From Epichloe hybrida (Eukaryota; Ascomycota; Sordariomycetes; Hypocreales; Clavicipitaceae): a DNA stretch of 64,000 nucleotides. Positions 8,821 to 57,730 of this stretch are shown one piece after another. How positions within the stretch are numbered: position 1 is the stretch's first letter; each line of letters opens with the position of its first letter. Where the stretch lies: the NCBI GenBank assembly GCA_019022495.1, contig JAFEKR010000006.1, forward strand, positions 868,001 to 932,000. The letters run 5' to 3'. Both the position numbers and the translations under genes were made by a program. The notes below the pieces were generated by a model. It saw only the letters and a list, made by a program, of their open reading frames with translations. It made no database searches and had not been told where the DNA came from.

Positions 8821-9210
8821 CTGCAAAGAGTGACCGGCATCACCGGTATCCTGGCCCATCTTGACCAGGTTCGACTCTCCGCCAACTCCCTCTCCTGACC
8901 GTCCGAAAACCGCAAAATTCAGGCCTTCGATCCAGTTCTTCAGCCTATGTAGATGCCCTCGGTAGCCGGGTTGGGATTGTCGATCTTACCAGGGGGGGCT
9001 TTTGGAACCGTTTTCTTATTCGGGCCATCCTCTTGGTTGGCGATTGTGTTCGAGCTGGAGCGATTTAATGCCTCAAATAGTCGATGCCCGCGGGGTTCAC
9101 GATGGCTGCACGGAAGGTGTCCATTTGTACGGACTGAGTTGTATGTACGGAGTATTGCTCTCCGGCTCAAGCAACCTGAGAGGAGGAGTGGCGACGGCCC
9201 CACTCATACC
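8821..9210 (-). other. Possible small unrecognised gene next to the LTR
   Basis: The minus strand shows two stretches with coding-like GC-rich third positions. One runs from about 9050 to 8940 and ends in ...GKIDNPNPATEGIYIG and a stop. The other runs from about 8941 to 8821, is in a different frame (LKNWIEGLNFAVFG ... GDAGHSLQ) and ends in TAG. A GTAAGA...CTACATAG intron-like segment sits between them, but the phases do not join cleanly. No family is recognised and no convincing start was found. Before the retroelement landed, this segment would have faced MRH4 across a short divergent promoter. Confidence 0.2.
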
Positions 9211-9269
9211 CCCAGCCCCCCAAGCCGTTGATTGGTCCCGTCCGTGCTTGCTCCAAAGCTGCCAAGGGT

Positions 9270-9386
9270 TGAAAGTTGACCAAAAGTTGATGGGGTAAAT
9301 AATGCTTGTATTCCTCAAGTTCTCTAGCTAGTGCAGCCCTATATAACTATAATTATCCATTACCTAATACATTCCCTACCTTAATA
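9270..9386 (-). repeat. Left LTR (3' LTR of the element)
   Basis: 117 bp, beginning TGAAAGTTGACC; the terminal CA of this end is now TA. It matches the right LTR except for nine positions, all transitions. The four positions where this copy carries the T or A are all at index 71 or higher, on the side facing the element body. Confidence 0.93.
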
Positions 9387-10299
9387 GGCTAGCTATTTTT
9401 AAATAATAGTGTTAACCTTAACACTAAGAATACTAAGGATTACTATCTTCTTCTTACCTAAGCTTTAAGTCCTTATTCTAATTTATCTCTAGATTTTATT
9501 TTGCCTTATCCTAGGTGTTTAATCTTAGTAGTTAGAGTCTTTCCTATTATAGGATATAAATCTTTAGATTATTAATATAGATTTTCTATTAGACCCCTTT
9601 ACTAAGTAATTTCACTTAGTATATAACTAATAATAACTTCTTTACTACTCTTAAAAGTCTTCCCTAGGACTTATAGAATTTACCTTTTAGCTTATATTCT
9701 TTATCTATTTTCTCCTATACTATATTACTTACTTTAAAACTCCTTAGGGGCTTAGTTAGGTCTTTATAATTATTTACCTTTTAGGTCTAAACTAATTCCC
9801 TTTATTTTTCTCTAGTATTTATATTTTATAAATTAGTCTCTTTAATTAAAGTTAGATCTTTATTCTCCTTTTTGCCTAGTAATACTTCTTTATCTATTCC
9901 CTAGTGCTTAGAAAATAGTTTAAAACCTAATATAGATATTACTAGAGTTATTCCTATGCTAGATATATACTAATTATTTAAGATAACTATAATATTTAGT
10001 ATAGTTTAGTCCTAATACTTTAATGAAGTTCTATTTTATTTTATAGCCTATTTTATTAGCTATTACTTTACTAATCTAATATTACGCTTTACTAGCCTTA
10101 TAGATAAAGGATATAATATAGGCCTAAATAAAATATATATCCTATATTTCTTAGCTATTATAGTGAAATTTAAGTTCTTAAAATAAGAACTATTATTATA
10201 GTAAATTCCCTATAGCTAGCTAAAGATAAAACTCTAATATTTACTTTAGGTTTTAATTACTAAGTCCCCTATAGCCTCCTTATAGGATTATCCTAGTAT

Positions 10300-11880
10300 A
10301 AACCTAAATATATAATTAACTATAATTAAAATATAGGTATCTCTATTCTTTACTCTAGGAGTTATTAGACTTAAATAATCTATAGTTACTATCCCTTATA
10401 GTTCTAGAATTATAACTATCTTTGGTATAGCTCTAGATAAGCGCGTACTTATTTATTAGTAAATAAGGCAAGATTAGCAATAAGAGTTAATATCTTTTAT
10501 CCTATCTAGCTAGAAGTATTTTCCTTAGAGTTTTTATATTATAATAGTAATGCTAAAGTGTTTAGTAGTATTATAGGCTTATTAGAGTTTTATTAGAATA
10601 TCCTTAGATAAAATACACTCTAAAAGTAATTTATCTTACTTTATATAGTATAATATTTAATTAAAGATTTAGAATTTTAGGGATTAATATTATATTAGTT
10701 TTTACTATTTAGTTAGTATAGTTTAGTGCTTATAGACTATAGCTATTAGAATTTCCCTATACTATTTAGACTTAAACTAGTCTTATAGTTTTAATAAGAT
10801 TCTATTAGAAACCTCCTAGTTTAACTCCCCTCCCTCTAGTAAAACTATTTCTATATTTATTAAGATAAGGATAGGATAACCTTTTATTATAGGGATAACG
10901 TCCACTCCTATTCTCCTTATTACCTCTAGAGGTTTTAATTAAAGGTTATCTAGAAGTTAAGATATTCTATTCGTAATAACTATGATTTTAGTTATATTAG
11001 GTTAGTATATGTATTTAACATTTGATTCTTATAGGATATTTACCTAATAAGTGACTTTGCTATAGATCTCTGCTAAATTCGCTATTAAGTTAATAATTCC
11101 TTTGTAATTAGTGTACACTTTTAAGGCATATAGGGATTTATTTACAAGCTATTTTGTTTCTTTTAGCCCTACTACTATAGCTAGTATTTCCTTTTCTAGT
11201 ATTAAGTATCTTTTCTTAGTGTCCCTAAGTTTATAGGAAAGCTATATAATAATTCTAACTTTATTAAAGTTAGAATCTATTACTATTATCCTAGCTTCTA
11301 TATCCTTTATCTAAAATAAAACCCTACCTATTCTAGTATTAGAAGCGTCTATTACTAAATAGAATTACACCCCTAGCTAGGCTCTAAATATAGTATTCTC
11401 CTAAATACTATTATAAATCTTAAGCAAAGCTTACTAAGCTTTATTTATTTATATTAGTTTCTCCCTTAAAATCTTTTCCTTCTAAACTAACTATTTTCCT
11501 ATCTTTATAGTCTTAAATATTTCCTAGAAAAACGCCTTCTTAATAGTAACCACTAAGTTTAATTTACTAGGAATAAACTTTTAGAGAAATAGTATAAGGT
11601 AAATAAGTACTAAGATCTTATCCTATATCTTTAGAGGCTAATTAGTAAACTACTTAGCTAGATTAGTAAATCTTTTACGGTGTTTCTAAGCTAGTCTAAT
11701 CTTCCTATCTTTTAATAAGTAGCCTATATAATTTACCTTAGATATAAATAAAGTAGTTTTATGTCCGCTTAATCTAATTAGTGCCCACGTAACATAAGGG
11801 AAATATTACTTCTATAGGAAGTTAAAGTAATCTTCCTAGGTCTTAGAGCCTATATAGTAGTTATTAATATAAATTAAGAA
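10300..11880 (-). pseudogene. Pol relic: reverse transcriptase, RNase H, integrase
   Basis: The reverse-transcriptase active site is visible as FLIYINNYYIGSK; the paired catalytic aspartates (usually YxDD) read Asn-Asn at 11865-11860. RNase H follows with an IDASNTRIG strand (first Asp codon 11349-11347) and EKEILAIV near 11190. The integrase zinc region shows YC-X-SC near 10460-10480 with stops at Trp and Arg/Gln positions. The integrase core shows TIDYLSLI and VNYIFRF near 10390-10300. The motifs lie in frames interrupted by stops. Confidence 0.8.
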
Positions 11881-14800
11881 AGAAGTTTTAATGTCTTTTA
11901 TATAACCTAATATTAACTTGCTTTCTATCCTATCCTAGAAGAAAAGATAACTAAAAGTAAGATCTCTAAACCTTATATATATTAAGGGGGATCCTATTAG
12001 TCCTTAGGCTATATTATTATAAAAATACATACTATTAGGACTAGAAAAAGCTATCTTTAGTCTATTAGGGGGGTAAATTCTAATCACCTAGAACCTATTT
12101 AAGGCATTAGTTTAGGAGACAATCTTTAAACGTCCATAATAAATTAAGTCTAAATTAGCTTCTATATTATAACATAGATATCCTAACTTTATTGTCTTGC
12201 TATTAATATCACGATAATTATATACCACTTAGAACACTCTCTTTTTAGGTTTTAGGGTAAATATTATAGGCATAACCTATATTAAATCCCCTTAGGTAAT
12301 AATTCCAGCCCTTTCTATAGCTAGGAACACTTATTTTGCAAACTAGTAGTAAACTCTAGAATAATAGAATTACTTCCTTTTACCTAGTTAGGCTCTAGGG
12401 ATAAGGGGAATGTAGTAATATAAAAGATCTATAGTGTAAATATCCTTAAGCCTTAAAATAAAATAGTCCTTAAATATATAGTAAAGTCTTATAATTATTA
12501 TTTATTAGGACATAGTGCCTATATAGTTTCTAAGTATAATGCGTAACTATTTAAACCATAAAATAACGGTTTCTAGGTCTAAGTTAGTTAATAGTTAATT
12601 TATATGTAAATTTTAGAATCTTAAGGGGTACCCCTTAAGATCCTGATTTCCTATATAAATTAGGATTCTAGCTTATCTAAGCTTGTCCATGTCTGCCTTT
12701 TCGCTCTTACTTACACTGCTTATTTTCTCTAAGTATAAGGAATGCTTATCACTATCCTAGATTTTTAGGTTATAGTTACTAATTTGCTTATTTATATAGG
12801 GATTCTAACTTTATAAGGGGTCCCCCTTAATTTTTAGATTTACTATATAAATTAGGAATGTCTTGTGTCTAGGTTTGTCTAGTTTTAAATATTATAATTA
12901 CTAGAGTTCTAAGTCTGTAGTATAAAGCATCCTAGGACTAGTTTCTATAGTTAAGTTAGTAATCTGCCTGTTTATATAGGGATTTTAACTTTCCTAGGGG
13001 ACACCCTTAATTTTCGGATTTCTTATATAAATTTATTTATCCGTGTGTCTAAGTGTGTTTGTTTCTAGTTTTTCCTAATTTTTCACACTAGATAGGTATA
13101 CTAAGATCTTTAGTAAGTTAAGATTATCTATCCTATTCTCTTCCTATTCTTCTTCTAGTTCCTTATTAGAATTGTGATTATTATATTTTATTTATTCTCT
13201 TTCCTTCTTTATTATTATTCCTTTATTTTCTTTTTCTCCTAGGATCCCTATATTCTATAGTAATCCTAGGTTTTCTCTATTTTAAGTTACTCTTTGCTTT
13301 TATTCTTTTAGGCTTAATATCTATTTTAAATACTATAAAGCTTATTATTACTTAATCTAACTCTAAGTAATCTACTAGGTAGGAGATATAGGTTTTATAG
13401 GAGTAAAACTAATAAAGTAAGAGGTAATATATTTAATTTCTATCTTTAGTCCTAACTTAAAGGTTAATCTATAGGTATTAATAATTTCCTAGGGCCTTTA
13501 GAGAACTATAGTAGTTAATATTATTTTAGGTTTATCTATCCTAATGTTAATGTTATCCTTTATTATTTAGTTACCTAGGTTAGAAACCTATAGTTATCTA
13601 TCCTTACTATCCTCTAAATTAATTTTCCCTTTAGTTCGCTTATCTTCCTAATGGAGTCCTTAATAAGGGCTTATTCCCTAAGTATTCTCTAATAGTATTT
13701 AATTAACTTCTATTATTCTAAAATTATCTAATGTGATTATAATAATAGGTTCTTTTTATAGATAATTGCTAGAGTTATTATCTATAGTAATTAGTTTTCT
13801 AAAACTTTATCTTCTATTTAAGAAGTTAGCCTATTTAGGATCTCCTTTACTTCTTCTAGGATCTCTTAATTATCCTTAATAAACTTTATAGCCTTATTTA
13901 GTTACGTTCTCTAAGGTAATTAAGCGTTTCTTCTATCCTTATTCTAAAATAAGTCTAGATATAAATATAGCGGGAGAGTTTAAGTTTATCCCTTAGTCTT
14001 AGTAATAGTGATTTTCTCTTTACTATAGTATTTAATTACATTAATATAACGGAGCTAAACCTTCCCTAGTAAGATTTCCTAGTCTTATTAAGTGGGCATA
14101 ATATAACATTTCACTAAGGCTAAAATTCCTCCTATGATAACTCTTAGATAAGCATATAGATAGATTAGCTATTTAGCGTTATTTACTATCTAAATAAATC
14201 TCTTTTCTCTAAGTTATATTATAAGGAGCCTATGTTTTACTAAGTAGTTCTTACTAACTAGTTCCACACTTAATTCTCTATTAACTAAGGCTAAGTTATA
14301 TTATATACCTTTAATATATGTTATAATGTATCCTAAAGATGTGAGAACTTTACCTTCTAATCTTGTAATATTATTTCACGTTACTATAGCGTTTACTACT
14401 CCTAAAGATTTAGAAGTTATTAGGTTTAGCGCTTCCTAGTATAGTTCTATTAAATAAGATATAATTAACTTTACCTTATTACCCTTTAGTTTTTACTAGC
14501 ATTATATTAAGTATCCTATCTAATAATGGATAATTAAAGCTAATTATAAAAGTTATAATACTGTGATAGAAACTGTGGTTTCTCTTAAGTATCTTCCTAG
14601 ATTAAAAGCTAGGACATTATATTTTTCTATAGCCTAGATGTTTTCTAAATTAAGTTTTTGCTAGGGTACTTTTAATCTAGTATCTTTTATTACTACTTTA
14701 TAAGGTAAGGTTAAAACTACTAGTTCCTAGGCTAGTGCTATAGGTTTCTCTAAATAAGGTCTTAAAGCTAGTAATAACCTCTAGAACTCTATTTTAGTTA

Positions 14801-15272
14801 GTTCTTAGATTAGTTAAGATTATTATTAAGTCTCCTCTAAACCACCTTCCTATGTGTTATTAGAATCTAGAAGTTCTTAAATCTAATTCTAAAATCATTT
14901 ATCTATAACTATACCTAGTTTAGCTATAGGTTTAGCAATTCTTTTGTTTTATCCCCTTGTCTATACTAGTTTAGGGGCCTTCCCTTTATCTTTTAGTATT
15001 TTAGCTATAGTACCTATGTAACTGATTTTATCTTAGTCTATAATATAACTTAGGGAGTAATAGTTTATTAAGACTATAGAGTAAGATAGTGCTTTTAGAA
15101 TTAGAATAAATCCCAGAGGTAGGATCTAGTCTATCCTAAGATCTCCTATATAGTTAGCCTTTATTTGGTTTTCTAATTCTTATTATTACTCTCTCTTTAT
15201 TTAGAGTCTATTCTAGAACCACTATTCTTATTGTTTATCCTTATTAGCTATTAAATATTTATCCTTAGAAGT

Positions 15273-15314
15273 ATAGTTATATCCTATATAGCCCTATTCT
15301 CCGCATTTAAAGCA
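15273..15314 (-). pseudogene. Gag zinc-knuckle relic
   Basis: The minus strand retains the spacing C-X2-C-X4-H-X4-C. The two Cys codons and the following Gly-Glu are intact, then a TAG stands where Trp is usual, and the His and last Cys positions read Tyr (TAT). Each change is a single transition. This places gag in the right-hand part of the element and fixes its orientation. Confidence 0.8.
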
Positions 15315-17888
15315 CTAGTAAAAGTCTAGATCTCCCTTTCTAAAGGAATTAGTTATATTAGCTTATTTTCTAGGGGATTAGGAAGTGTTATTTAAACTAT
15401 ATTTTTACTAGTTATATTATCTAGCCATTTGGTTTATATTATTAGCAGTTTAAGCTTAGAATGCCTTAAGTTATTAAACTAATTCTAATATCTACTTATC
15501 TTTTTCTCTATTATATTTTACCTATTCCTCTATTTACTACTAAAAAGGGTTTGCTAGTATAATAGCTTCTTTACTTAACTAAGAAATCTTCTTAGAAGCG
15601 AATAAATAATAGTTATATAAAATAACTTTAAGGTCTAATATAGTTAGATCCTTAGATACTATACTACTTATCTATTTCTCTAAAGAAAATAAATAATTAG
15701 ATATTCTTTCTTAAAGTTATGTGTTTATGTCTCTATTTACTAGGTTAAAAACGAAATTAGTGAACAATATCTGTTATATTTCGGATTTTACCTTAGATGC
15801 GATTTATTTTACCTAATAAATATAAGACTTTAGTATCTTGCCTTTTTTATAGGCAAAATTAATTACCTCCTTCTATAACACTATTTTAAAGAGAGAGTCT
15901 AGCTTATTAAACTTTTTTAAAAACTTATTAGCTATATTTATCTAATTATAATCTTTAAAATCTAGATCTTAGTACTATATTTTCGCTTTACCTCTAAGGC
16001 CCTAGATAAAGATATATTAAGTAAATATATCTATATAATTTTTTAGAATATTTAATATAGCTACTATTATTTAATAATGTTTTATGTACTCTATTGCTAG
16101 CCTATCTTTTAGAAGTCCTAAAAAGGTAATGCTAGTAAGTGCTATGGGAATAGCTATAGAGAAAAAAGGGTTGTTTATTATAGTAAGTTATCTAGTTTTC
16201 CTAGTATTAACTTTCTTAGCTAGTTTAATTAATAAAGAATAGAATTCTAGAAGTATAGCTTTACCTAGAAGAATATATAAAGGGAAATATTCTAGGCTTA
16301 GAAGGTATTCTAATAAGTCCCTATTTAGTTCTATATTTAAACTTAGTTCTAGTTTCTCTTAAGTCTAAATATTTAGATATTCTTATATAAGGTTATTTTA
16401 AAAACTTATACTAGGATTTTAACTTATCTATAGTTAAGTTAAGTCTAATAGGAATTTAAAGACTAAATTTATAACTAGATTAGAAGTTATCTTAGTCTAG
16501 GAAGAAAAGAAAATAAGTAAACACATAAAATACTACTAGGAAATCTCTTTAGTGAAAAAAGATAGCGTTTTACTAGAAATAAACTTAAATTTTATTACTA
16601 CCTCTCTTAATAGTTAGTTAGATAATTAAGATAAAAGAAAAACTAAAAGAAAAGTTTATCTCCCTTTTTCCTTTCCTAAAACCTTCTATCCTTCCCTTAT
16701 CTATAAGCTACCTTTCTCTATATAAAGTAAATCCTAATATTAGGTAAGTGTCCCCTATAAAATTCGCTATTTTATATAGTGTGTTATTTTATTTCACACT
16801 ATACTTACTAATTAAAGTTACCTATAAGCAAAAAAGTAAAGATAAAAGTAAGGTAAAAGTAAGGCTATAGTCTATATATAGTGTAGTGTATTATAGTGTA
16901 ATTATAAGTGTAAACCTAGGATTTTAACCTCTAGGTACCTCTTAGAAAGGCCTAAAAACTATAAGGTTTAATCCTTATATCTAAAGTTATTTACTAGGCA
17001 CTTTCTTAGCCTAGCGCTATAGTATTATATATATATAAAGTTATAGGTAGTAATAATATAATTTAGCTAAGTCTAAAAATATGTTTTCCTATACTAGGTT
17101 TTTAATTTATAGTCTAAAATCCATAGTTAGAAATTCCCTTAAGGTTTAAGGTTATATCTAGTAGTGTCTATTATCTAATATTATATAATTATTAAATTCC
17201 TATCTTCACTAAGCATGTAAATAGGGATTCCTAGCTTCTAGTTCCCTTATTTAAGTGCACTTAATATAAGCATTTTAAACTATAAGTTTATAACTCTAGT
17301 CTAATAGTATCCTTCTATAGATATTATTTATTCCCTAGTGTGCTATCTAGGGAGTTATTCTATAATAAGGGGTTTTAGCTAGCTACTATAACTAAACTAA
17401 GTCTCTAACTTCTACAGTTCCTTAAGTTTATTCCCAACTTTCTTATTATTAGATATTCTCTAAGGGGGTTGAATTATTATTATAGCTATCTTCCCTATCT
17501 AAGTGCCCTCTAGAATATTAAATTCCTAATAGAGGTTATTCCTAATAGTTATAAGTTTCTTTATAATCCTATAGTTTTATATTCTATTTAGCTTTATACT
17601 ATAGCTTAAGGTATTCTCGCTTTATCTAATAGAAAGATTCCTAACTATAGCTAGAGGTTCTCTTTATTTATTAATAGTAACTATAGCTCTATTAGTTAAT
17701 CTTTATTACATTATAACCGCAGCTATCCTAATAGGTCTGTAGCACTCTATCTTAATTTCCTAATCCCATTATGTTAGTTATTTAATTATTTAGATAGCTT
17801 CTTAGCTATAACGGATTATTATTTAGTTATTAATTATTTTAAAACCAAGTTTATTTAACAAATATAACAGGTCCTAGTCTTATCACTA

Positions 17889-18005
17889 TAAAAGTTAACC
17901 AAAAGTTAATAGGGTAAATAATGCTTATATTCCTCAAGTTCTCTAGCTAGTGCAGCCCCATATAACTATGATTATCCATTACCTAATACATTCCCCACCT
18001 TAACA
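17889..18005 (-). repeat. Right LTR (5' LTR of the element)
   Basis: 117 bp, ending ACCTTAACA; the initial TG on the plus strand is now TA. The five positions where this copy carries A against G in the left copy (index 2, 9, 20, 23 and 39) are all in the half facing the element body. The element reads leftwards from this LTR. No clear primer-binding site is left next to it. Confidence 0.93.
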
Positions 18006-19906: not shown

Positions 19907-19956
19907 AGAATCAAGAATCTCGCCGGGTTCGCACATTGTAAAATTTGTAAAACAGA

Positions 19957-19999
<43 letters not shown>

Positions 20000-20456
20000 A
20001 TTGAGCAGGCGTTGAGCTTTAAGGGAAAAGCACTCCGTGAGTAGACAAGCGCAGGAGCGGAGAGAAAAAATAACCTCATCGACTTTTCCACAGTTAGCAT
20101 ATCATCACCGAGTACGGAGTACCTGCATGCTGATATCAAAAGACGTCAATGACACCATTGCGAGCAGCACGGAGTATTAATGATAAGTTCGCCAACCCAT
20201 GCGCAACCTGGGCCCCACCCACGCCGCGTCGCGACCAGACGCGTCCCAGGCCCCAGCAGTAGAAATGGCACTTGTGACTTTGTCTGTCCCTTCAAAATAT
20301 CCACAACCCACTTCACGCGCAACGCACCTTCATGTCGCATCCATAACATCCCAAGTCAGTTCCACCTCGTTCTATACGTACTGCAGGCAATTTTTCATTG
20401 TGGTCAGCTGTCAAGCCTTGTGGAGGTTTTTCTCTTCTTTTTTTGGATACCTCAGC
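19907..20456. other. Intergenic with GT microsatellite
   Basis: MRH4 3' flank and leader of the next gene. It contains a GT repeat at 19960-19997 and one TACGGAGTA motif at 20113-20121. Nothing coding is supported. Confidence 0.5.
19960..19997. repeat. GT dinucleotide microsatellite
   Basis: About 19 uninterrupted GT units, 54 bp downstream of the MRH4 stop codon. Confidence 0.95.
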
Positions 20457-22277: not shown

Positions 22278-22642
22278 GTCACGACATATCCGACTGGCGA
22301 TGGTTTGTTTTTCGTCTCCTTCTTCTTACAAACATTACGAAATTATGGCGTGTTCGGAGCGAAATGGGCGTCAGTGTACGGAGTAGGTGGCATGCTATGT
22401 GGTTCGGCACCGAGGGGGGCAACAGGTTTTGATGGGAAAAAAAAAACGTATTTGTTGCTACTATGAAGCTTTCTTCATCGCTGTTCGTTAAGAAAGGATA
22501 ACGAGTTTCCGTACCCAGCAATGGAAAAAAAAAAAAACCAGTACCCGTGGGAAAATGAAAAGGACCCGGAAATGAGAATTCCTCGAATTCCTTTCAACGC
22601 CATGAACGCCCTTGTGATGACTTGTTGGTTTCTATAACCTCG
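22278..22642. other. Convergent 3' intergenic region
   Basis: Between the 3' ends of the KEN-motif gene and TIP41. It holds A-rich tracts (22437-22447, 22525-22538) and one TACGGAGTA motif (22377-22385). Confidence 0.5.
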
Positions 22643-23606: not shown

Positions 23607-23967
23607 CGTTTTGTTTTGTTTTGTTTTGTTTTTATTGTTATTCTTCTTTGGCAACGACGACGGGTAGCTGTGATTATGCTTTGATGCTGGGCGAAGTTGT
23701 TGTTGTCGTGTCCTTGGAGGGGCGATGGTTGGTACAGTGGGGGGGGGGGGCGGATGTTACTTGGTGGGGTTGACCAGCAGAGCACCGTGGGGGTCGAAGC
23801 CAAGTCCGGCAGCTGTACTCCGTAGCTCGCTGTGTCAGATTGCATGGCAGCGGGCTGCGAGTGTGCTATCATAATCATATACTGTAATTGATCACATGAA
23901 GTCGCTAATGAGGACCCTGATGACACCCAAGAATACCTGGTCTACAATAAGAGCATACCTTCCTATG
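23607..23967. other. Intergenic, TIP41 promoter side
   Basis: Contains a G run (23741-23750), a TACTCCGTA motif (23816-23824) and the upstream flank of the tRNA gene. No coding region. Confidence 0.5.
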
Positions 23968-24197: not shown

Positions 24198-24587
24198 TTA
24201 GTAGCTAAACTCAGCTAGTGGGAAAGTTAATGCATATACGGAGTATGTAATGTAGTAAGAGAAACCATTTTGAATTCCTCTGCCTAATTCCCAAATACTT
24301 CCAGCTACCAACTGCGTCCCGTTCTCGCAGTTTGCTTGATGACTGGCGTGACGGGGACCGGGTAGACAAATTATAGCACAGGTGGGATAATCTGCGGAGA
24401 AGGTGAAGGCGGAGCGAAGCGGCTTTGTTTGAGTAATGTGCATCCATCCCGAGTTGAAGTCGAAGACGTACGCCTTGCCGTCCATGTCAGAGACGATGTT
24501 GTGAGAAGAGACCGTGGGTGGCACATGTGTGCACTCCACGTCACGTGATATGTGACCGAGGCGACGAATTCCAATTTTAACGTACAT
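24198..24587 (-). other. Possible kinase-like gene fragment
   Basis: An ATG-started frame on the minus strand has coding-like third positions in its first half. It reads SHNIVSDMDGKAYVFDFNSGW, which resembles the catalytic-loop and DF(G/N) region of kinase-fold phosphotransferases. No flanking N- or C-lobe could be found, so this is at best a relic. It may also be chance. Confidence 0.2.
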
Positions 24588-30254: not shown

Positions 30255-32307
30255 CTCTTGATAATCCCGTTGTAACCCTAAAAGCGGAAGCAACGGCCTG
30301 GCCCTTTTTGAACTCGTTTTTTTGGAAGGGGGGGGGGTCCTTTTTTTTATTGGCTTTCCCGTCTTCTCGGCCTCTCTATTTTTTTTTCCTCCCCTCTTCT
30401 TGTTTGATTGTCTTTGCGTCCGCCAGGTTTCAGAATAGGGGGTTGCTAATAATTGGATCTGCGAGAGGGGGACACGGCCACCTTTTGGGTGGAGGGTTGT
30501 CGTCGCTGACTGGATGTTCTCTGATGGAATTGTGGATTGTCGAAAAATGACAGGCCGGCCGGCAGGATGATATTTCGGGTCGAGGTTTGCGGGTTCTCGC
30601 GTTAGGGGGGCGGAGGCTTCTGAAGACAAAAGGCCAGTGTTTTTACCACAGGAAAGGTGGTATGGAGTCAACTGGTATGGTGGCAGATGGTTGTCGTTTG
30701 TTGGGGAACGAAACATGTACATACGCATGTACCTTGGGTCACTGAATGCGCATGCCGCGTTATTAGTCCTAATCTAGACTAAGCGGTCCACACACCTAAC
30801 TTTAATGTGGCTTGCGGTAATTGATTTGTAATATCAACTAAGATAGCTGTATATGCAATATTGAAAATTATTACTATTATTTAAGCTATTATAATTGCTG
30901 CTATGCTAGCATTAAATTAAGGAGTAGTTAACTCTCTATTATGTGTGCCTTAAATAATTACTATTAGAATTATGTTATGGGCTGGCCCCTAGGCGCCTGC
31001 TATTGGGCGTCGATATGATGTTAAGAAACTTGAGGTGGGAAGAAAGGAAGGTAGGATGCCTGTCCCTTACGGAGTATTGTGCCCCTCATGTCCCCTCATA
31101 TCCCCTAGCTATCTTATGTTCAGCCCCTGACTTCTGTGCGCTACAACTATTGCTTGGATAAAGCCCAACCCTTTACATTTCAATTACTATAAGTCCCTTG
31201 CTGACTTACTAGGTATTGATAGCGGTAATCACGTCTTCTGCAGTTATATAAAATAGCCATATTTTGGAGAATAATATAATAAAGGGTATTTACAAAAAAC
31301 CTGATTGTATTGTGTTGCGTTACATTGCGTTGTGTTACGTTGCGTTATGTTACACTACATATATTATAAGACTTTTCATAATAATAAAAGGAAGAAAGTT
31401 TGTATAGAAAAGGCTATAAATACCATGGTGAGCCACTTACATTCGCTACTAAAGAGAGCTAGTATATTTAGCAAGGGATTAGGTGGAAAGGTACTTCTTC
31501 CGTTTCAGGACTCACGCGGTATGCGCATTTATGTAGTGACCCAAGGTACATGCGTATGTACATGTTCTGTCCTTGTCAAAATCACTAGCACGGACATGGA
31601 TTTCAGTCTCTGGCCGCGAGACTGGCCAACCAGCCGCCGCAGCGGTGAAAAAATTCTGCCACCTCTATGCCCTTTCACGTCGATCGCGCCGCGCTTGGAC
31701 AGGCGCGACAGAACCCGGGCGGTGAGCGCCCCACACAAAAGGGACTTCCACAGCCTGGAAGTACCTCGGCGCACCAAGCAGCGCCGCAAATGTACCTACG
31801 GATCCGTACTCCGTAGAGCACTAACCAATTCCCTTCAAGCTGCACGAAGCCGCCTGGAGTCCGCATGGGCCCAGCTTGACTCGCTCAGCCGCCTATGACG
31901 ACTGGCGCAGCCCGCTTTGCGGGTCCGGCGTCGGCCCAGGATTTCCAAACACGATGGAATGTCAACGTTCCATAGGTGATGCAACACAGCGGCAGGACAC
32001 GCCTTCAAGATGGCGGACGAGGCATTTACGGAGTCGAAAAGTAAGTTTAGCAGCATGTGAGAAAGCCTGTGACGTACGGAGTACGCCTCAGAGTTTTGCG
32101 GCCATGTACTTTCGTACTTGTCAGCCGATTCTCCTCGAGCTGTTTTGGAGGGGTTCAGGTTCATCGCCGTCGTTGTCATTTTCCGATCTCATCTCAAAAG
32201 CATCCTGTATTAATTTTTCCCCAAAAACAAAAGCCGCCAAAGCCTTTCATGGACCTGGCCTCGGTCTTGTCTCCCTTGCTAATTCTTCATGATCAAAAGC
32301 CGCCGAG
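30255..32307. other. Gene-free 2-kb interval with AT-rich relic
   Basis: Spans the ATP23 promoter, an AT-rich segment (about 30770-31420), a stretch of imperfect TTGCGTTA/TTGTGTTA repeats (about 31300-31350) and the PRO1 promoter. TACGGAGTA motifs lie at 31068, 31807 (reverse) and 32075. No convincing coding region was found. Confidence 0.5.
30770..31420. other. AT-rich, possibly RIP-altered relic
   Basis: Composition shifts to AT-rich with many TA dinucleotides, like the retroelement at 9270-18005, and then returns to normal. No terminal repeats or protein motifs were identified, so its origin is unproven. Confidence 0.4.
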
Positions 32308-35239: not shown

Positions 35240-36163
35240 CCTGTTTTACTCGCGAGGCTTGCGGGTTTTCACGGAGCTTTCTGACCGCCAATACTGACTG
35301 AGAAGGAAATAAATCCCTCGTCCGTCACTCTTTCTGTCGAACTACAAACCTTTCTGTTGCTATGTCTGCGGCGCTGCCTGCAATGGAACGTCGTCTGAAG
35401 CCTAGTAGCAATCAACTTGTGGCAGAAAAGAAAAAAAAAATCGGGAAATCGACCCTTTCCCGTCAGGCTTATCGGAAGTGGGGGCTTACCGATAAGATCC
35501 CTTCGTCGAACGAACGTGCGCAGGAACTTGCTAGCTAAGCCAGGTCTTGACGAGGATCCTAAGATCATCTGCTGCGAGAATGGACATTTTGCTATTCGCG
35601 GTCCGACAAAATACTTCGTGATACTTATCGTGCAGGTGTTTTGTGGAATAGTCCAGGTTGTTTCAATCAAGCTGGCGCATGTCTAATCAACTCGATGGGG
35701 GAAGAAGGGGCAGTGAATTCATTCGACTTCAGGGCGGCCTGAGGCCGAGGGGTCGCTCTGGAGACATCCGTGGAGCTCGGAGCCCCTGTCGCATAATAAT
35801 TCAGGAGAGGCAAACTTCACGCAGAAACTTGAGCTCCTTTTTGCTTGGATTCCCATCAGACGCCTCTACCAGACCTCCTCTCCCATGGGCTCACCTCTTG
35901 TCCACAAGCTCTGAGCTCAGGCACCAGCACCAGCACCAGCACCAGCTCCAGCACCAGCACCAGCTCCAGCTCCAGCTCCAGCTCCAGTGTTCCCACACCA
36001 AATGCACTACGGACTAGGGTACGGCCTAATTCACCACAAGTGGACCTGCAAGACAGTTCTGATAAACCCCACCATTTGGTTTGACGGAGGGATCAAGTGC
36101 GGCCGAGTTTATTGTGACTCACGCACTCTGCTTTCCTCGAACCTCCCGATAGATTAAGTGTGG
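35240..36163. other. Divergent intergenic region NIP7 / GRS1
   Basis: Shared upstream region of NIP7 and GRS1, about 0.9 kb. It contains a CACCAG/CTCCAG hexamer array at about 35921-35987 and A-rich patches. No gene is supported. Confidence 0.5.
35921..35987. repeat. CACCAG/CTCCAG hexanucleotide array
   Basis: About eleven 6-bp units, mixing CACCAG and CTCCAG, about 180 bp before the first GRS1 start. Confidence 0.9.
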
Positions 36164-43090: not shown

Positions 43091-43847
43091 ATACCCTTTA
43101 TTTCAGCTGCGAGAGCAGTCGTTAGACAATACCGTTTCTCTTCATGAGCACGAGCAATCCAGCATATTTTTTGGGGGCCATGGGTCCAGCGAGCAAACAG
43201 AATGATGCTGCTTTGGCGCTCTTTCTGCGTCATGACAAATATCGGCGTTTGGGGTTAGGAAACGATACACATTATTCTTCTTGAGCAAGCGTTTGATGGG
43301 CTGGGTGCTCGGTCTCCTTTCAAAGCGCGAATGCCTCACAGTCGTGCATTTTAGATTCAGGATTTCTTGGGTCGAGAAGAGGGAGAGCAAACCCGCCACA
43401 GGGGATATGATGATGCTTACAAGGCACGTGGATATATACGGTGGCAGTACTCCGTACCAAAGGATAGTATAGTAAAGCAAATTTTCTTGCATGGAACCCG
43501 GGCTGCTCAGGACACTGGCCATCTAACACTCCAATAGACGCTATGTATGATCAAGCACCTTCACAAACCACTCTGCTCAGTGATTCGGCGAAAGGACAGA
43601 CGGTCCTGGTGAACGCACATGTCCTTATGGTCCGGTCATGAGCTTCAAAGCTTGGTTCGTCTCGTAGATCTTGACCTATTTGGCTAGCAGCGAGCTGCCT
43701 ACTACTAGTGCAGCCGTTCATCTAGCGGCTGGGAGGCGTTCAATCTATGATGGGTGCTCATCATTGTCACATTGGTCAGAGTATTTTAAAGTTCAGGTGG
43801 CAGAATGGCAACGGGAATGGCAGGAGGGGGCTGGTTGGGGTAGCAGG

Positions 43848-43886: not shown

Positions 43887-44236
43887 CACCGAGGGTGGAG
43901 CCTGGAAGCTCTCTCCCTGCTTCTGGTGGAGTGGATCCGGGATTCGCAGGGCGTCTTTGGCCGGCCTCTCTTGATGCACGCAATGGTGCGATGGTGCGTG
44001 GGCTCTGAACCCCTGAAATATTGCCCAACATATCATCCCTGGCGCCGGCTGTGGATGGCTTCTTGTAAGTCAGGGGAAGTCGTTTCACGACGGATAAGTC
44101 GGAGTAATCAAGTACTCCGTACATTGTATATATCTGCATGTTGCTTCTGCCACGACCTTTGTCTGCGTGCGTAATCCGTACATCAACGTACATGTTGACG
44201 CCATCTAGCCAGCATTGGTTTCTAAAGCTCGAATGA

Positions 44237-44273
44237 CTACGGATAATCCGTAGTCCGTAACGAATAATCCGTA
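44237..44273. repeat. TCCGTA palindrome cluster
   Basis: A perfect 17-bp palindrome (arms CTACGGAT and ATCCGTAG around one A) at 44237-44253 is followed by AGTCCGTAA and a further TAATCCGTA at 44265-44273. Confidence 0.9.
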
Positions 44274-44611: not shown

Positions 44612-45374
44612 CTCGCCTTGTGCGCCCTGTAATATTATCGCATCGCATCTTGCAGATCCAAAACCTCGTTGATGAGCTTCTCTTGTCGGGGCAGGTGGAC
44701 GGTCACGTGAGAGGTGTAAACGACGGATTACCTTTTACCCACAGGTCCGCCTCGGCTTTTTGCTCATTTGCCGTCCTTTTCCTTTTCGATCACTGCAGCA
44801 GATGTGGTGGATTTCCGATGAACAGATGGAGAATCCATGCATGAAGGAAAAAAGAAAAAGAAAAAATACGGAATCGTGGCTCTGGCGCCGAGTGCAACGC
44901 GTGGGGCCATCATGGACGACAGGACGCGTGGTATTAAGCTCAAGGCCACCGGACAACCCCCCGGAGCCCGCATTGAAGTCTTTTGTTTCAGACCTTGGGG
45001 ATGCTGCCTGCTATTGTTGTCCTACATCGGGTATCGGGGGTATTATTGGGGTATGATCATGGGTGGCGCCGATTCAAGAATAGGACAGGACTGACACGAG
45101 CTACGGATTACTATTACTGTGTAATCAATCGACGGCGAGGTTGGAATGGGTGCGTCTGGTTCTTCGTTTAAATCTAAGCGCGGAGCCCCCCGAAGTCCGG
45201 AGGGCATGGGGAAACATCAGCCTGGCAATTAGCACTCTGCCATTCGATGATACACGGAGAGTGACCAAGACCCGAACTTGACCTGACGATCGCTCCAGTG
45301 GCTGCGCTCCCTGCGTCGATGCCGCATCCTTTTCCAAGGCAGAGCAAGCAGACCTTTCTTGGATTGTACAGACT

Positions 45375-45455: not shown

Positions 45456-46588
45456 AGAGCATGGAATGGCCCGACCGGAGTCTGCAATGCGGTCTGGGCC
45501 GTGAGAACGTCTGGTCCGATGCCATCGGCAGCAATGCCAGGTGTGATCCGTATGTAATGTTGCAATATGTACTCCGTAGCTCCTTGCGCGTTTTCGTGTA
45601 CCAAAAGTCCAGTCAGTCCAGTCAGTCCAGTGGACCTGGCCTACTACAGTGGGTGTAGGCAGTCCCGCAGCCAGGCAGTGCCACAGTGCCACCCGTTAAC
45701 TACGGAGTACGGATTACCGACTACAGCCTATCACATCAATCTATCAATTGCTCCAGTTCCTGCTTGCTCGTACCATCATCCGTCCCCCCCCATCGTTACG
45801 TTATCCTCCTCTCCGGCCCACGAAATCCCCCCCATCATCATCACCATCAGCCTCTTTTTTTTTTTTCCTTCTACCGCTCTCTCCTCTTCCTGGCCCGCCG
45901 TCCTCCCCTCGCCCTTCTTCTCCCATTCACCCCAATGAGGCCTGTATATTGATTGATTCTTTTACGCTTTACTTCTGCATCGCCTCCTCCTTCTTGCGGC
46001 AGCCTCCACCCCTTCGCCGAGACCACCATTTCGAACGGACCGTTTCGCCCCGGCAGCTACTTGCGTGTACGCTCCCCGTGTTTCGCCGCCAACGCTGCAA
46101 CACATCTATCACCAGACATCACTGTCTCTTAGATAGAGGCACGGCCGATTGACTTGCCTTGTCTTTTTGGGCGTCCCTGCGTACCAATTCATTCGTCGTC
46201 TCGGTCCCTCCCTCGACAACGAAATTTCGGCAGTCTCGCTCGATTGGTTTTGTTGTCACAGTATCCTTTGTAATACCTGGCTACTGAACCACCTGGTGTT
46301 TTCTATATTCTTGTGCGCCTTTCCGCTTCCTTTGGGTCTCCATCACCCGCATTGTCGATCGCCGGGCTAGGTGCATATCTGACCTCCAAGTCTGTCGATT
46401 GTTTTCGAAAGATACACACCCCCGATACGAGAATTGCTATTCAACCAAACGGCCTTGGCTTTATTTTCTTTAACCGCTTTTATTGCGCGTCAGACAATAC
46501 AAACACAGAACAATAATTAAACGCACCTTGCCCAAAGGTCTTACTTATACTGTACCTCAGTGTCATGAGGTCAGCCAGGTAATTGATA

Positions 46589-49500: not shown

Positions 49501-50235
49501 AGCGATTGATGGATGAGGTCGGACTGTCCACGAGAGGCGCCCCTGGCCGAGAAACCAGCAACAACCCCGAAAACCGGCAGCGGCCAACATCCCGACAAGC
49601 AAACAGTGGCGTCATGAACGGTCAGCAGGCTAGCAACAACAACAACAACCAGAACAACAAGTCTTTCTACGGTCAGATGAATGCACAGCCAAATGCAGGC
49701 GGCTTTGATGCAGGCGGCTTCGATGCACCCTACGGCAGCCAAAGAAGCGACAATGCTGATGTCAACGTCCCAGCGTTCCAGCAATACGCACAGGGCATGA
49801 TGTACAACACCTCAGCGAGCGGCATGGCACCACCGGTGAACCTGTCTCAACTTCAATACCAGCAAGGCATGATGAACAGGGGTGCGCCACATATCGGTTA
49901 CAACTTCCCTCCCATGCAAGCCCCATATGGAACCTACGGCACACCTGCTCCAGGAGTCGATCAGTACCGCCAGCCCAACATGGCAAACGGAAGTCCTATC
50001 CAGCCGGCGGCATCACATATGCCTCCCCAGATGCCCGCGGGGCAACCAACATATGCGCCTCCCGGTTTTGGGGTGGGATATGGTTATGGGAACATGGCCG
50101 GCATGCAGGGCATGGGATACATGCAGCAAGAGCCTGTCAACAGTCGACGTGGTGGCCGCGTACGTTTGGTCCATCCATCCTCATCATCTTTCCCAACTTC
50201 TAGCAGAAACTAATCTATTGTATTCACAGAGATGA
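46589..50235 (+). CDS. RRM plus Pumilio-repeat RNA-binding protein (Puf1/Puf2 type)
   Basis: Exons are 46589-46821, 46961-50159 and 50230-50235, encoding 1145 aa. The last coding exon is only AGA TGA. Its intron has a GTACGT donor, an ACTAAT branch region and a TTCACAG acceptor, giving the ending SRRGGRR. The N-terminal 420 residues are Ser/Pro-rich. An RRM follows at about 427-505 (SALWLGGIPTSTTTSTLVEMF, HKNCGFVNFERV). The Pumilio repeats span about 620-915, with AELASDYLGNTVVQKLFEHC, KNGTWAAQKIIDVCKTPQQM, and FLDQYGNYVLQGCLKFG. The tail is rich in Asn, Gln, Met and Pro. RRM plus PUF repeats is the layout of yeast Jsn1/Puf1 and Puf2, which bind mRNAs of membrane proteins. A five-codon upstream frame starts at 46565. 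Confidence 0.92.
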
Positions 50236-51958: not shown

Positions 51959-54900
51959 CTAGTCAAGATCCATGGGACCCTCGGCATGATCGACAGTCGA
52001 CGGAGGCGTCGGTTCCGTGACGAGCGGTGGTGTGTCCATTTTGACATGATGGAGATGGCCGATGCCATTTGAAATCACTGTGACGGGCGAGCTCATTTCC
52101 GCCTTGATGGCCTTCGGTGCCGGCGTACGCGGGGCCACCGTTTCCTCCTCTCCTAGGACTTGTCTGATGCGTGTGCTCATGGCTTCCATCTGGGTGAGCA
52201 TGGCGCGAAGTCCGAGTCGATCAGTGTCCGTAAGCTGGTTCAAGGCAATATTGTCGGCGCTGCTCTTGGCCATGAGTGACAGGACACTCGGGTCAGCGGC
52301 AGCGAGAAGGGCAGACGTCAGATGCTCAATGCCATCTGAGCGCTTCTGCCGTAGGCCAATCAGGTTGAGGGAGACTTGCAGCTCCTCTACCTTGCGCTCG
52401 AGAGCAGAGCCGTGCAGAGGGCCCGCCGACTCAGGCTGGCACGGGGGCGACGGGTAAGGAATCACTTTGGATTCGAAGCGTCGAGGTCCGTACCCAGCTC
52501 CCTTGTTCCGCAATCTGTCGCGTCGCACAATCAGAAGGAGGCAAGGCAAGGACAAGAAGGTCGCCCACGGGACGGGGAGAGAGAAAGAAAAGGTGCACTC
52601 ACTGCTCGATGAAGTCGAGAACTACTCCCCTCGCGGGGAGCTTGTAGATTCGTCCAAAGGAGCGGACATCGGTCCAGCCGGACCGGTCGGGTTCTTCAGG
52701 CTCACCATCCCAGTCAATCTCAATGTGGCCATTGTTCTTCAAGCCACGACTCAGGGCAGGTGACAAGGTCTGTCCAGCCTTGAGCTTGCGGAAGCGATGG
52801 GCGGGAGCGAGACCCGGCACCTCAATCAGGACGTCATCAACGTGTGAAGGGCACCGCCAAGTCTTGAGAACAGGCGGCACGGCCAGCGGCGGATCCAGAC
52901 AATCAATGTGCCAGTGATACGAACAGACGCTGCAGGGGATGATGGCCCGCGTCTCTGATGCCGATTTCTGACACCCATGGCACAAGACCGCTTGACCATC
53001 TTCTCGCTGCTTGAAGAAGTCGGGCAATTCATCGTAGCCATTCCTCTTCCTATTTTCGAGCCACGGGTCAGCCACGGGTCGGCCAGCCTGGCCACAAAAG
53101 CCACACACACACACACACACACGCACACACACACGCAGTGAGTGCGAGGGGAGCAAAGGGGGAGGGCGACTCACTTTGCCGTCTTGCTGCTGATAATCTC
53201 TTCGTAATCACCATCGACACCGGCCCTGACGCCCTCGAAGCGGTTCTGCACACGCTTGGGCAAGCTGAATGCACGGGGAATGCTCTTCTCCAAATTGTTG
53301 AGAGCACCTCCAAAGATTCCCTTGTGGACCGGCACGCGTGAGGGATATCGCCGGATGAGACACTCGTTGCAGTACCACTCGTCAGGGAGATGATCCGACT
53401 GCACCATGTCGACACACTCGAAGTGGAACGACCGCGGGCAGCCATCGCAACAAACGACGTCGCCCGTGTTTCCACATGCAGAGCAGTTCTCGTCGTTTTC
53501 CGCCGCCTGTGAAAGATGAGTTAGCCGGGAATGCCTTCCTCTTGCTGGGTCGCGGTCCGGGGTGGTTCCGGGGTGGCCCGGGGGTGGCCCGGGGGTGGTC
53601 CGAGGGAAGGGAATCATCATTTCTTGTGTTTCCACCGGTCCACTCGGACGGACACATGACGAAACCGCATTGCACACACATGCGGCGTCCGCAGCCACTA
53701 GCAGATTAAATTGCTCAGGTGCGTGCGAGCCGTCGTGATGCTGGTTCGGCGGTGCGACCCCCAAAACAAGGTGTGCGTGTCTACTCCGTAGACCAGCTCG
53801 CCCCAGCCGAGTGCTGCTGCATCGCGCGCGCTTCATTCACATTCTGCCCACGCATGCCATGTCATGCAAAAGCACCACGGCACCAGCAAAATTGTACAGC
53901 GCGACTTACCGGGTCCTTGGCAGTGTTGCCGTTGGAGGCCGAAGAATTTGCCTCATTCACTGGCCGCGGCACGCCCGCTGCCGTGCCGCCCTTCTTCTTG
54001 ACAGGCCTAAAGGGGACAAGTGAGTCAGTCAGCTTTGCCTTGCAAGGAGGAGAATTTGGCAAAGAGGTGGTAGGTGGTCGGGGGCGAGATGAGCGAGGGA
54101 CTGGTCCCGTTCTGCCGCCCAGCGACGAAATCCAGGCGTGCAATCTTCCAATGCATCCTCGCAAATTCATCCCTCTTGAGGCCATCTTCCTAATCAGGAG
54201 TTTGTAGACGTCTTCAACTCCATCATGCTCCAGCTTGGTGAAATGGGCGCATCAAGGGCAAGGGGGAATATAGGGGGTACACAAAAAGACTCACGATGAC
54301 TTGACGCGCAAACCCGTCTTCTGCTTCTTCACAGGCCGCAAAGACGTGGGAGTGGCTGCCCGGGATCCAATGGATGAGTTGCCATCTCCAGTCAAGCACA
54401 AAGCTATCGGCGAGTCGTTCCTGTCTGCTTCATCACTGGGACGCTTGCTCGCGGACCGAGTAGCGCGCGTAGCGACGCTGGCCGCGAGGGACTGGCGCGT
54501 CCTTCTCGTCTTCCTCACAGGCGTCGCCTGGCGCTCAGCATCAGGGTCTCGGACAGAGCTCTCCTGCGCGCCGACGCCGTTCGTGACCTTGCGCGCATCC
54601 CGTCGCCGGTCCCAAAATGAATCCTCATCCTCCTCGGGCATATGAGCCTGAACCTGGACGGCGGCGTGACCGTCTCCGTTGGCGGACAACAAAAGTGACT
54701 GTTCTGCGCTCTTGGTGCCAAGGTTGGGGAAGAGCTCTGCAGCGGAGACCCGGCCAGGCATGCTGGCATCATCAGGCAAAGGCGAAGCAGACGAGGGTTT
54801 GAAGGTGCGAGAGCGACTTGTGTGCTGAAGGGTGGGAGAGTTTGATCGGGATGAGTTGGACACGGCCTGTTTGCTGGAGGCGACTGATTTGCCGCGGGTC

Positions 54901-55895
54901 TTGATTGGTTGGGCCTCTGGCGCAGTCTGGGACTTGGCTCCAGCGGACTTGGCGGACTTGTTGGAGGAGGAATGGAGCGGTACAGCGCTTGTCGCAGCGG
55001 CCGCAGTGGCTCGTCGTGGCCCCCCTAGTAGTGCACCACCACCACCTCCTCCTCCTCCTCCTCCTCCTCCTCCTTCTCCTCCTTCTCCTGCTGCTGCTGC
55101 CGCTGCTGCCGCTCCTCCCGCTCCTGCTCCCGCTCCTGCCCCCCGACATGCTGTCGGGCTGTTGAGACTGCTCGCCCTCAGCTCTGGGGATGACAGACTC
55201 AGAGCCGTGGAGAGAGACGAGTCGCTTGATCCAGAGTCTCGCCGTGCCCGTTTTCTCGAGCCTGGCGTCTTCACCTTGATTTTCCTCGTAGCATGCCCAG
55301 CATCACCATCAGCTCCTTTCCTGCGCGGCGTCGTCGCTGGTGCCGTGGCCGTGGCCGTGGCCGTGGCCTTGGTAGCGTTCCCATGCGAGGTTTTGGCCTT
55401 CTTGGCAGCTCGCTTCACCGCAGTTTCCCGAGGCAACTCCTCGGGCTCATGAATCAAATCTGCATATGGCGCCGCTATCGCTTTGTGAGGTGTGAATCTG
55501 CTGTTGGTGGTGGGAGGCACGAAGTGATGGCAACCACGATTGTCTTTCTTCCCTTCGCGCTTTCTCTCCTCCATCTGTCTGAAGAATTCTTCCAGCGTCT
55601 CCTCGTCAGCCGTCTGGCTGAAGACATCCTCAATCATGGCAACGAATTCCTGATCACTGCTCTTCTCATCGTAGAGGGTTCTGAGGGCCCAAGCGGTCGG
55701 GTACCGATGATGCTTCAGTGCTTCATCCACCGCCGCCTCAACAATCCTGTCCGTTAACCCTTGATGATCCGATTCAGATCGAGCCTGACGCTTGGGCGTC
55801 GTCGGCTTTAGTGTGATACTTGTAGAGCTCCTCCTGCGTTTATGAGTCGATGGGAGCTGCGTTGTTGGTGGCAGTGGTGGTGGTGGTGGTGGTGC

Positions 55896-55930
<35 letters not shown>

Positions 55931-56552
55931 TTGCTGCTGTTGCTGCTACTGCTACTGTTGACGTTGCTGTTGTCATCTTTTTCACGGGCAGGGACACTCG
56001 ACGAGACCTCCTGCGTCCATTCATACCCTTTGGATCATACTCATCGTCTTCGGCTTCCTCATCCCTTATCTTCGCCGCAAGTGACTTCCGCTTAGTTGTC
56101 GGTGCGGAAGCAAGCAAGGGAGAGGCAGGAGGTGACATGGTCATGACTGGCATTTCGTCATTGCCGTCATCCTTTACCACAATCTCTTGTTCAGCTGTGG
56201 CCTTTGCCGCGCTCGTGCCAGACGTCCTGAGTATGATTTTCCTTGGCGGCTGTGCTGGCTGTGCTGGCTGTGCTGGCTGTGTTGCGTCACCCGTAGCCTT
56301 CTTCGCCTTTGGCAAAGCTCCCAATGGTGCCATGTTCCCCAATACCCCAAAGCGCATCAATCCTGCCTCTTCAAAGCTAGGCTTGCTTTGCACCGAGGGC
56401 TCCAGCCATCTCTGCATGAACGACCGCGAACCCTCGTTGGCAGAGTTCTTGGAAACCTCCAACGGCCTAGTCGCGTCCTTCCCGGTTGATTGTTGCGCAG
56501 GACTCGAGAACCGCGAGGCCGACCGTGAGGCCCGTGTATTTGACGATATCAT
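51959..56552 (-). CDS. RCO1: Rpd3S subunit Rco1-like double PHD-finger protein
   Basis: Exons on the minus strand are 56552-54295, 54006-53910, 53506-53175, 53049-52603 and 52514-51959, encoding 1229 aa, all junctions in phase. Rco1 is part of the Rpd3S histone deacetylase complex, which is recruited to transcribed genes and suppresses cryptic initiation. The N-terminal signature FMQRWLEP...PSFEEAGLMRFGVLGNMAPLG is typical of fungal members. The middle is low complexity (Ala, Gly and Pro runs). PHD1 (about 792-835) is CSACGNTGDVVCCDGCPRSFH through WYCNEC. PHD2 (about 918-968) has CHGC, CSVCSYHWHIDC and WRCPSH. The C terminus includes a helical region (ERKVEELQVSLNLIGLRQ). Intron 1 is long (288 bp). 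The start is the first ATG of the conserved frame. Confidence 0.9.
53101..53136. repeat. CA microsatellite in RCO1 intron
   Basis: About 17 CA units broken by two G, inside the intron 53050-53174 of the RCO1 gene. Confidence 0.9.
55020..55145 (-). repeat. Coding GC-rich triplet repeats (Gly/Ala tract of RCO1)
   Basis: Runs of GGA/GGC and GCA/GCG triplets encode a poly-Gly and poly-Ala stretch in exon 1 of RCO1. A second Ala tract lies near 55890-55960 and a (QPA) repeat near 56250-56280. Confidence 0.85.
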
Positions 56553-57730
56553 TGTTTCCCCTCGCCTTTTTCTGATTGCTTTCAGGCCAGGCACTTCTCC
56601 TTCATAGTTTTGGAGCTTCGGGACGCGCGACCCCTTTTGCTTGGTCTCGGGGGCAGGACTCTCAACGCACCTGCCTAAGTCTAGCGAACATGGTGTTAGC
56701 GAAAAGGGGGGCCAAACACGCCGTCATGGATGACTTTTTTTATTTTTGGAATCCTTACTTGTTTCTCGAGCTGCAGCATAGAATCCAGCTACCGAGTCGC
56801 GCTTTTCCGGTGCGTTTGACGCGGGTATTAAGGGGTGAGGTGGCGCAAGACGGGATGAGGAGCAAGTTCTTGCAAAATGTCGTGGGCCTGGAACCGGGGC
56901 CGAGGGGGGTCTGGTCTGGTTGCTTGAGTGGTCGACTGCAGGTGCCCAGAAGCCTAGCCGACACTGGCACACGGGCAACGCGGGCACTCAATCAAGTGGA
57001 ATATACTCCGTATAGTGGATGCATAATAGCGTCTGGTTCCATGCTTCCCTCAAGTTGTTCAATGTTTCGCCTTGCTCCCCCCCCCCCCGATCCCTCCGCC
57101 AGCGACGTCCCCAAGCCAGATGTTTTGCCTTTCCTTGTACAGAGCACGGAGTATTATGGACATGAATAATATGTACGGACTGAGGCATGCACATTGCACA
57201 CACCCCTCCCCTGTTACCACCCAACTAGACACAATAATGGCTCTTCAATCTTCCCAGCCCTGTCTCGCGACCACGGGGCAAGCCGGCTTCACTGTCACTT
57301 TGTCATTCATTCGTTCATCGCTTGCACGGTGGTCACTGTCACTGTAACCCCTAAGCACTTCATCACTCGGCTCTTTGGAGTCGTTGCTTCGCTAATCATG
57401 CCATGTGCGGAGTCTGAGACTGCGATTCACTGTCTAGATATTGCGCTGCCGCGGTTACACCAATCAATGGTCGTGTAGAAAACACGCACGCGATACCTCC
57501 GATGCAATGGCAAAACATCACAAAAACATTTGAGCCAAACATCATGCTGCGATACCTGCGGGTGCGGGTGAGTATGCCATTTTACCACGCACGGCATTCA
57601 CTCAGGCCATAGCGCAAGTGCTTCTCCATCGCCAGTTGCTTTGTTCTTCTTCTACATCTTGCTTGGGTAATCACAGATTCGAGCGCTCAGGGGCCTCTGG
57701 ACATGAACACTGCCTTCTCGCACGCCACGC
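56553..57730. other. Intergenic between RCO1 5' end and PA2G4-like 3' end
   Basis: RCO1 promoter side and PA2G4-like 3' flank. It has a C run (57081-57090), one TACTCCGTA motif (57004-57012) and a near match CACGGAGTA near 57146. No gene is supported. Confidence 0.5.

Follow-up and report, generated by a model that had tools for sequence, protein, structure and literature searches.

What is the short word TACGGAGTA, which recurs in the non-coding DNA of a 64,000-nucleotide stretch of the Epichloe hybrida genome (assembly GCA_019022495.1, contig JAFEKR010000006.1, forward-strand positions 868,001 to 932,000; hereafter the window)? A preliminary description of the window had listed 14 exact copies of this 9-mer and proposed three origins for them: a binding site, a chromatin element or the footprint of a small mobile repeat. 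The word is one of a sharp family of three, composed of TA, CGGAN and again TA, with N = G, T or C, and at some loci its units are present in one subgenome and absent from the other as blocks of 7 bp at a TA. We lean towards the view that the 9-mers are TA-targeted 7-bp micro-insertions, perhaps the scars of TA-target transposons, which were gained and probably also lost whole.

The 14 copies were all found at the positions listed before, seven on each strand. It had been estimated that well under one copy should occur by chance; dinucleotide shuffles of the window yield a mean of 0.34, and 14 copies were reached in none of 100 shuffles. The five near matches reported in addition were placed exactly in one case (32027) and one base off in the others, which lie at 20168, 39315, 57145 and 59947. 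When up to one mismatch to TACGGAGTA is allowed, the window contains 33 matches vs 8.5 expected, and TACGGATTA and TACGGACTA together account for nine of the 19 that have one mismatch. The preliminary description covered one of the three forms; the window carries 23 TACGGA[CGT]TA sites. In the entire genome (79.9 Mb), TACGGAGTA is found 2,994 + 3,037 times (6,031) compared to 251 + 235 times (486) for the reversed word, and TACGGAGTAC 1,446 + 1,460 times compared to 47 + 64. For TACGGAYTA, the counts are 3,062 + 3,055 (6,117) vs 991 + 1,071 (2,062). TACGGAATA, with 250 + 238 occurrences (488), lies below its reversed word (955 + 936; 1,891). Altogether, there are about 12,000 raw family matches in the genome. 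The density of TACGGAGTA is 219 per Mb in the window (14 in 64 kb) and 75.5 per Mb on genome average.

Word expectations were calculated for a sample of 213.6 kb with a GC content of at least 0.40. Here, TACGGAGTA was observed 37 times vs 0.56 expected, a figure inflated by the choice of the sampled loci L001-L008 for carrying TACGGAGTAC (L007 was not counted). TACGGATTA was observed 25 times vs 0.36, TACGGACTA 12 times vs 0.44 and TACGGAATA once vs 0.6, while the 24 remaining one-letter variants occur 0-6 times each, in sum 41 vs about 18, i.e. about twofold. The three family words also top all TA-N5-TA words in a somewhat larger sample, with 40, 27 and 16 copies vs 0.64, 0.41 and 0.51 expected, and the palindrome TACGGATCCGTA is the top TA-N8-TA word (8 vs 0.01 expected, both strands counted). 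The genome-wide frequency, on which the preliminary description had let the matter depend, greatly exceeds that of the reversed-word, shuffle and Markov controls, and these controls exclude a chance origin of the TACGGAGTA copies.

The non-coding placement reported for the 14 copies is supported, for the family as a whole, by an analysis of stop-to-stop frames. In loci no shorter than 9 kb, frames of at least 300 aa account for 36% of the GC-normal sequence but contain just two family sites; the whole GC-normal sample contains 83. Family sites are scarce in AT-rich chunks (3 in 98 kb vs 83 in 247 kb). Isolated sites favour G at position -1 (31/63) and C at +9 (32/63), and 18/63 have both, compared to a TA background of 8%. 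The -1 and +9 positions of these 63 sites are weakly complementary (p 0.036), i.e. there is a weak preference for palindromic flanks. Beyond this -1/+9 preference, alignments of 39 and 63 sites revealed no flank consensus of the kind expected for a miniature inverted-repeat transposable element or another short transposon. It had been considered that the copies could be just the ends of one transposon family. This was rejected for the sequence read: no further flank is shared, and there are no terminal-repeat pairs outside one heptamer array.

How do the sites behave over time? The TIP41 protein of this genome shares 97% identity, across 75% of the query, with an Epichloe bromicola protein. 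The TIP41 region and the region of a Pumilio-type gene are present in two copies each, the second with 90% and 94% DNA identity, respectively. The genome appears to be that of an interspecific Epichloe hybrid with two subgenomes, as judged from these two loci plus further homeologs found later. Since such regions exist in two diverged copies, the sites can be compared with their homeologs. The window was aligned with contigs C77 and C74, further sites were sampled on contig C1, and two more repeat copies were included. The homeologous segment is broken: 7.4-30.6 kb of the window correspond to C77 in forward orientation, 31.7-36 kb to C74, and the pieces from 41.9 kb on to C77 in reverse orientation. 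This means, the subgenomes differ by rearrangements. As the site at 31068 is without homeolog at the expected place, 22 of the 23 family sites of the window can be compared. Among 28 C1 segments, 23 have diverged homeologs, which together with the window sites makes 45 loci. Five more C1 segments, which do not belong to the 45, comprise one that matched a longer array (L008), one with a short match (L027) and three without diverged homeolog; rows L063-L066, each either a further copy of a homeolog already included or a completely identical copy, were left out.

At ten of the 45 loci the unit is kept, and at nine the subgenomes differ by exactly one 7-bp unit. Given these nine clean cases, the mobile-repeat footprint is the best-fitting of the three origins proposed earlier; the binding site fared less well, with conservation no better than that of control TA-N5-TA words, and its published support comes from SomA elsewhere. 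In the window, the homeolog keeps three units: TACGGAGTA at 20113..20121 and 22377..22385 and TACGGATTA at 45708..45716, all on the plus strand. Five sites show a clean 7-bp presence/absence: TACGGAGTA at 32075..32083 (+), 43448..43456 (-) and 45701..45709 (+), the latter being the first of two tandem units of which the conserved one at 45708 is the second, TACGGACTA at 36008..36016 (+), and TACGGATTA at 44265..44273 (-), where the empty place reads CA. One site, TACGGAGTA at 57004..57012 (-), differs by 9 bp (TATACTCCGTATA vs TATA in the shorter homeolog). The adjoining TACGGATTA and TACGGACTA at 44244..44259 (-), which begin at 44244 and 44251 and have one TA in common, both fall within a gap of 20 bp, interpreted as about three units, and 11 sites are otherwise changed or located in larger gaps. 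On C1, where classing was done by eye, seven of the 23 segments are conserved, four show clean 7-bp differences (L016:6631, L022:750, L021:6797 and L021:1089, the last an 8-bp gap in the automatic alignment owing to a neighbouring shift), four are substituted and seven complex. In the remaining one, L013, the two subgenomes carry different arrays at the same place (L013:9405 vs L051). A single TA stands at the empty place, replaced by CA or TG in three clean cases out of nine. Nine 7-bp gaps occur in 20,956 aligned columns; read in context, these include three exact family units and one near copy, TACGGACTG, whereas a strict cyclic test scores two of the nine as family.

For comparison with neutral words, every TA-N5-TA word was classed automatically in both directions in the alignments without the C74 stretches. 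Gaps of 7 bp were found at 8/62 family words (two of the eight supplied by the L013 arrays) and at 1/66 control words (Fisher p 0.015). Conservation of family units above this neutral control was not found: 20/62 vs 16/66 (p 0.33), figures in which conserved sites count double; counted once, they are 10/52 and 8/58. Therefore, the units differ as units and are, as a class, not conserved beyond neutral controls.

The direction of change was approached at 31068..31076, where a plus-strand TACGGAGTA lies within a dispersed repeat (the part at 30993-31151). Seven other copies of this repeat are listed, on C1, C85, C86, C69, C152, C131 and C70. The unit is missing from all three that were read (C1, C86 and C85). 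At this site the window copy is 17 bp longer, with three point differences beside it. The aligner places a single 17-bp gap, which was divided by eye into the 7-bp unit TACGGAG and a local duplication of 10 bp. The comparison of the copies favours a gain in this single case. Furthermore, exact copies number in the thousands without being conserved and must therefore be replenished, and we infer that the copies stem mainly from gain by insertion.

According to the proposed mechanism, a 7-bp unit would be gained, and probably also lost, whole at a TA, with the TA duplicated around five bases. It may be speculated that the unit is the excision scar of a putative TA-target cut-and-paste transposon with the ends CGGA...TCCG. 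The scar CGGA+G would then combine four bases of one end with a single base of the other, and the rare palindrome TACGGATCCGTA four of each. Later on, some of the units may come to be used as binding sites. In the CGGA|TCCG junction series, a strong excess was found for 4+1 (complement 1+4) and 4+4. The full series was not recovered, as 4+2, 4+3 and 3+x are without strong excess. A three-base target duplication (NTA, with N the base before the first TA) was also rejected, because N and the -1 base are not linked. Tc1/mariner/pogo elements are DNA transposons that target TA and leave excision footprints. Such footprints resemble the units described here in that a few bases have TA on both sides, the unit-less relative has one TA and the flanks are weakly palindromic. 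They differ in that here one five-base scar occurs in three forms and about 12,000 raw matches, and no parent element was found in the stretches examined.

A number of observations weigh against an origin by micro-insertion. At 26 of the 45 loci, the difference is neither conservation nor a clean 7-bp change, and the polarity evidence consists of one repeat whose 17-bp gap was split by eye. Genome-wide, TACGGAYTA is just threefold above its reversed-word control. Simple repeats, for instance TATATATATA and TACATACATA, exceed expectation equally strongly at k=6 and k=8, and the palindrome TACATGTA is also in excess with 36 vs 4.1 (both strands; window and L001-L039 less L007, L029 and L030), which could be a microsatellite or another TA-bounded scar. 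In the same sequences, no intact CGGA...TCCG element was detected among pairs 26-1000 bp apart, all listed pairs lying inside the L004 array, and larger presence/absence stretches considered as parent elements have ends that do not fit CGGA...TCCG. In addition, a simple four-plus-one scar leaves N = T or C unexplained. The remaining points concern adjoining units, most of which are direct pairs (63%) with N more often the same than expected (47 of the first 100 listed vs 36, p 0.012), and the binding of SomA to its motif, which in Aspergillus fumigatus is supported by electrophoretic mobility shift assay (EMSA; PMC7667024).

Adjoining units bear on the proposal that the TACGGAN heptamer spreads by microsatellite-like slippage and is dispersed by repair copying from nearby units via TA microhomology. 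Genome-wide, 752 direct, 261 convergent and 174 divergent pairs have a TA in common, compared to 12, 0 and 0 for the reversed word; about 0.9 direct pairs would be expected under independent placement. The excess of direct pairs and the above-chance sharing of N indicate that tandem slippage also contributes. The 7-bp period, same-strand spacings of 7, 14, 21, 28 and 35, and the long homogeneous array L070 point in the same direction. Bacterial heptanucleotide repeats likewise form arrays of the same TACGGAN core with a 7-bp period; about 7 of 11 bacterial arrays examined look homogeneous, whereas the fungal sites are mostly isolated (63 of 86 in the same loci) and their arrays mix bases and orientations. 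A tandem minisatellite of identical head-to-tail units was rejected, as 435 of 1,187 adjoining pairs (37%) are inverted and among the first 100 direct pairs listed, N differs in 53. Slippage alone cannot make inverted pairs or mixed bases. Moreover, single units differ between the subgenomes without any adjoining unit (32075, 36008, L022:750), and a 7-bp gap is rare at other TA-N5-TA words (1/66). As an account of the whole family, slippage with repair copying is therefore quite unlikely.

Transcription factor binding sites kept by selection, for an Epichloe SomA ortholog or a Zn2Cys6 protein, with the 7-bp differences as ordinary turnover, would be the explanation closest to published work. 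In A. fumigatus, chromatin immunoprecipitation sequencing (ChIP-seq) of SomA yielded the 11-mer GTACTCCGTAC in 119/476 cases, and the EMSA included a mutant probe (PMC7667024). SomA binding was also reported at the meaB promoter (PMC10900910). Among the k-mers of strain Af293, CTACGGAGTA exceeds the 99.99th percentile, and a predicted C6 zinc motif overlaps with it (PMC12153272). The SomA motif is the same word on the opposite strand, and the G at -1 and C at +9 favoured here, together in the 18 of 63 isolated sites mentioned above, correspond to the outer bases of the 11-mer; across the genome, C is found at +9 in 2,906 matches. The avoidance of long open frames would also agree with regulatory sites. 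The Epichloe family differs in having three forms, 7-bp presence/absence and no excess conservation. Conservation equal to that of control TA-N5-TA words and exact 7-bp differences, which are unlike point-mutational turnover, argue against selected binding sites, and motif discovery on intergenic peaks may pick up any common intergenic word. Selected sites are in our opinion an unlikely source of the family. The same 9-mer is among the most over-represented words of the A. fumigatus genome and forms the predicted target TACGGAGTAG of the giant Starship transposon Tardis, where the word carries a direct repeat of 9-11 bp; the repeat is conserved in other Eurotiomycetes and its function is said to need testing (PMC12153272). 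The Epichloe copies could thus be landing sites or remnants of a Tardis-type element, and captain-like DUF3435 matches are present in the genome. However, these are six matches on two contigs, five of them with internal stop codons, compared to about 12,000 raw family matches. Here, 7-bp units with TA duplication are found, and in the sequence examined none of the copies was seen beside a giant element. A role as Tardis landing site suits the word better than that of a Tardis remnant, and we consider either role as the origin of the family highly improbable.

The micro-insertion reading leaves the other window sites to be described. TACGGAGTA at 9146..9154 (+) is not informative, as it lies within a 362-bp stretch missing from the C77 homeolog. 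At 23816..23824 (-), TACGGAGTA is located at the edge of a 76-bp non-aligning stretch, at 24237..24245 (+) the homeolog has several small differences, and at 31807..31815 (-) the site lies within a 43-bp gap and has a TA in common with TACGGATCCGTA. The TACGGAGTA sites at 44113..44121 (-) and 45570..45578 (-) are altered in the homeolog, and that at 53782..53790 (-) belongs to a stretch missing from it. TACGGATTA is substituted at 44172..44180 (-) and lies within a 240-bp stretch missing from the homeolog at 45102..45110 (+). The inverted pair TAATCCGTA/TACGGATTA at 60162..60186 is not kept by the homeolog. Independently of the family, an AT-rich block of 8.7 kb (9270-18004, 24-29% GC) is missing from the other subgenome. 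It has AGGGT on both sides, and the homeolog reads CCCAAGGGTCC unbroken. The block looks like a transposon insertion degraded by repeat-induced point mutation (RIP) with a 5-bp target duplication.

The bacterial arrays were followed further. Triples of TACGGAB occur in at least 118 stretches of a prokaryote collection; the 80 listed (L073-L152) are all bacterial by title and come from several phyla. As the array pattern excluded N = A, the bases used in these arrays carry no weight as evidence. With a peptide translated from such arrays as query, 97 small predicted proteins were matched, 15 of which were read. One predicted protein, P0196, starts with a translated heptamer array followed by a 23S rRNA intervening-sequence domain (PF05635). 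With the whole of P0196 as query, the matches were apparently array translations alone. The domain part (52 residues, E 1e-3) matched none of the 80 listed array loci, and the lead was dropped.

Among the titles and abstract openings listed for the 9-mer, the 11-mer and the other two forms, none describes a 7-bp insertion unit, and no paper came up for Epichloe miniature inverted-repeat transposable elements in the collection searched. New here are the three-form family, its high copy number in a sordariomycete and its behaviour as a 7-bp unit. As a tentative extension, one might imagine a self-sustaining fungal micro-insertion system in which some putative enzyme repeatedly writes TACGGAN into TA in either orientation, preferentially beside earlier units, and thousands of copies with fast turnover were later adopted as sites by transcription factors (SomA) and giant transposons (Tardis). 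If most copies arise by micro-insertion, regulatory sites could be born by insertion instead of point mutation. This would provide a concrete account of a word for which the 2025 Starship paper considered a transcription factor site without settling the matter (PMC12153272). Furthermore, motif discovery in fungal ChIP peaks would need a background that includes this word.

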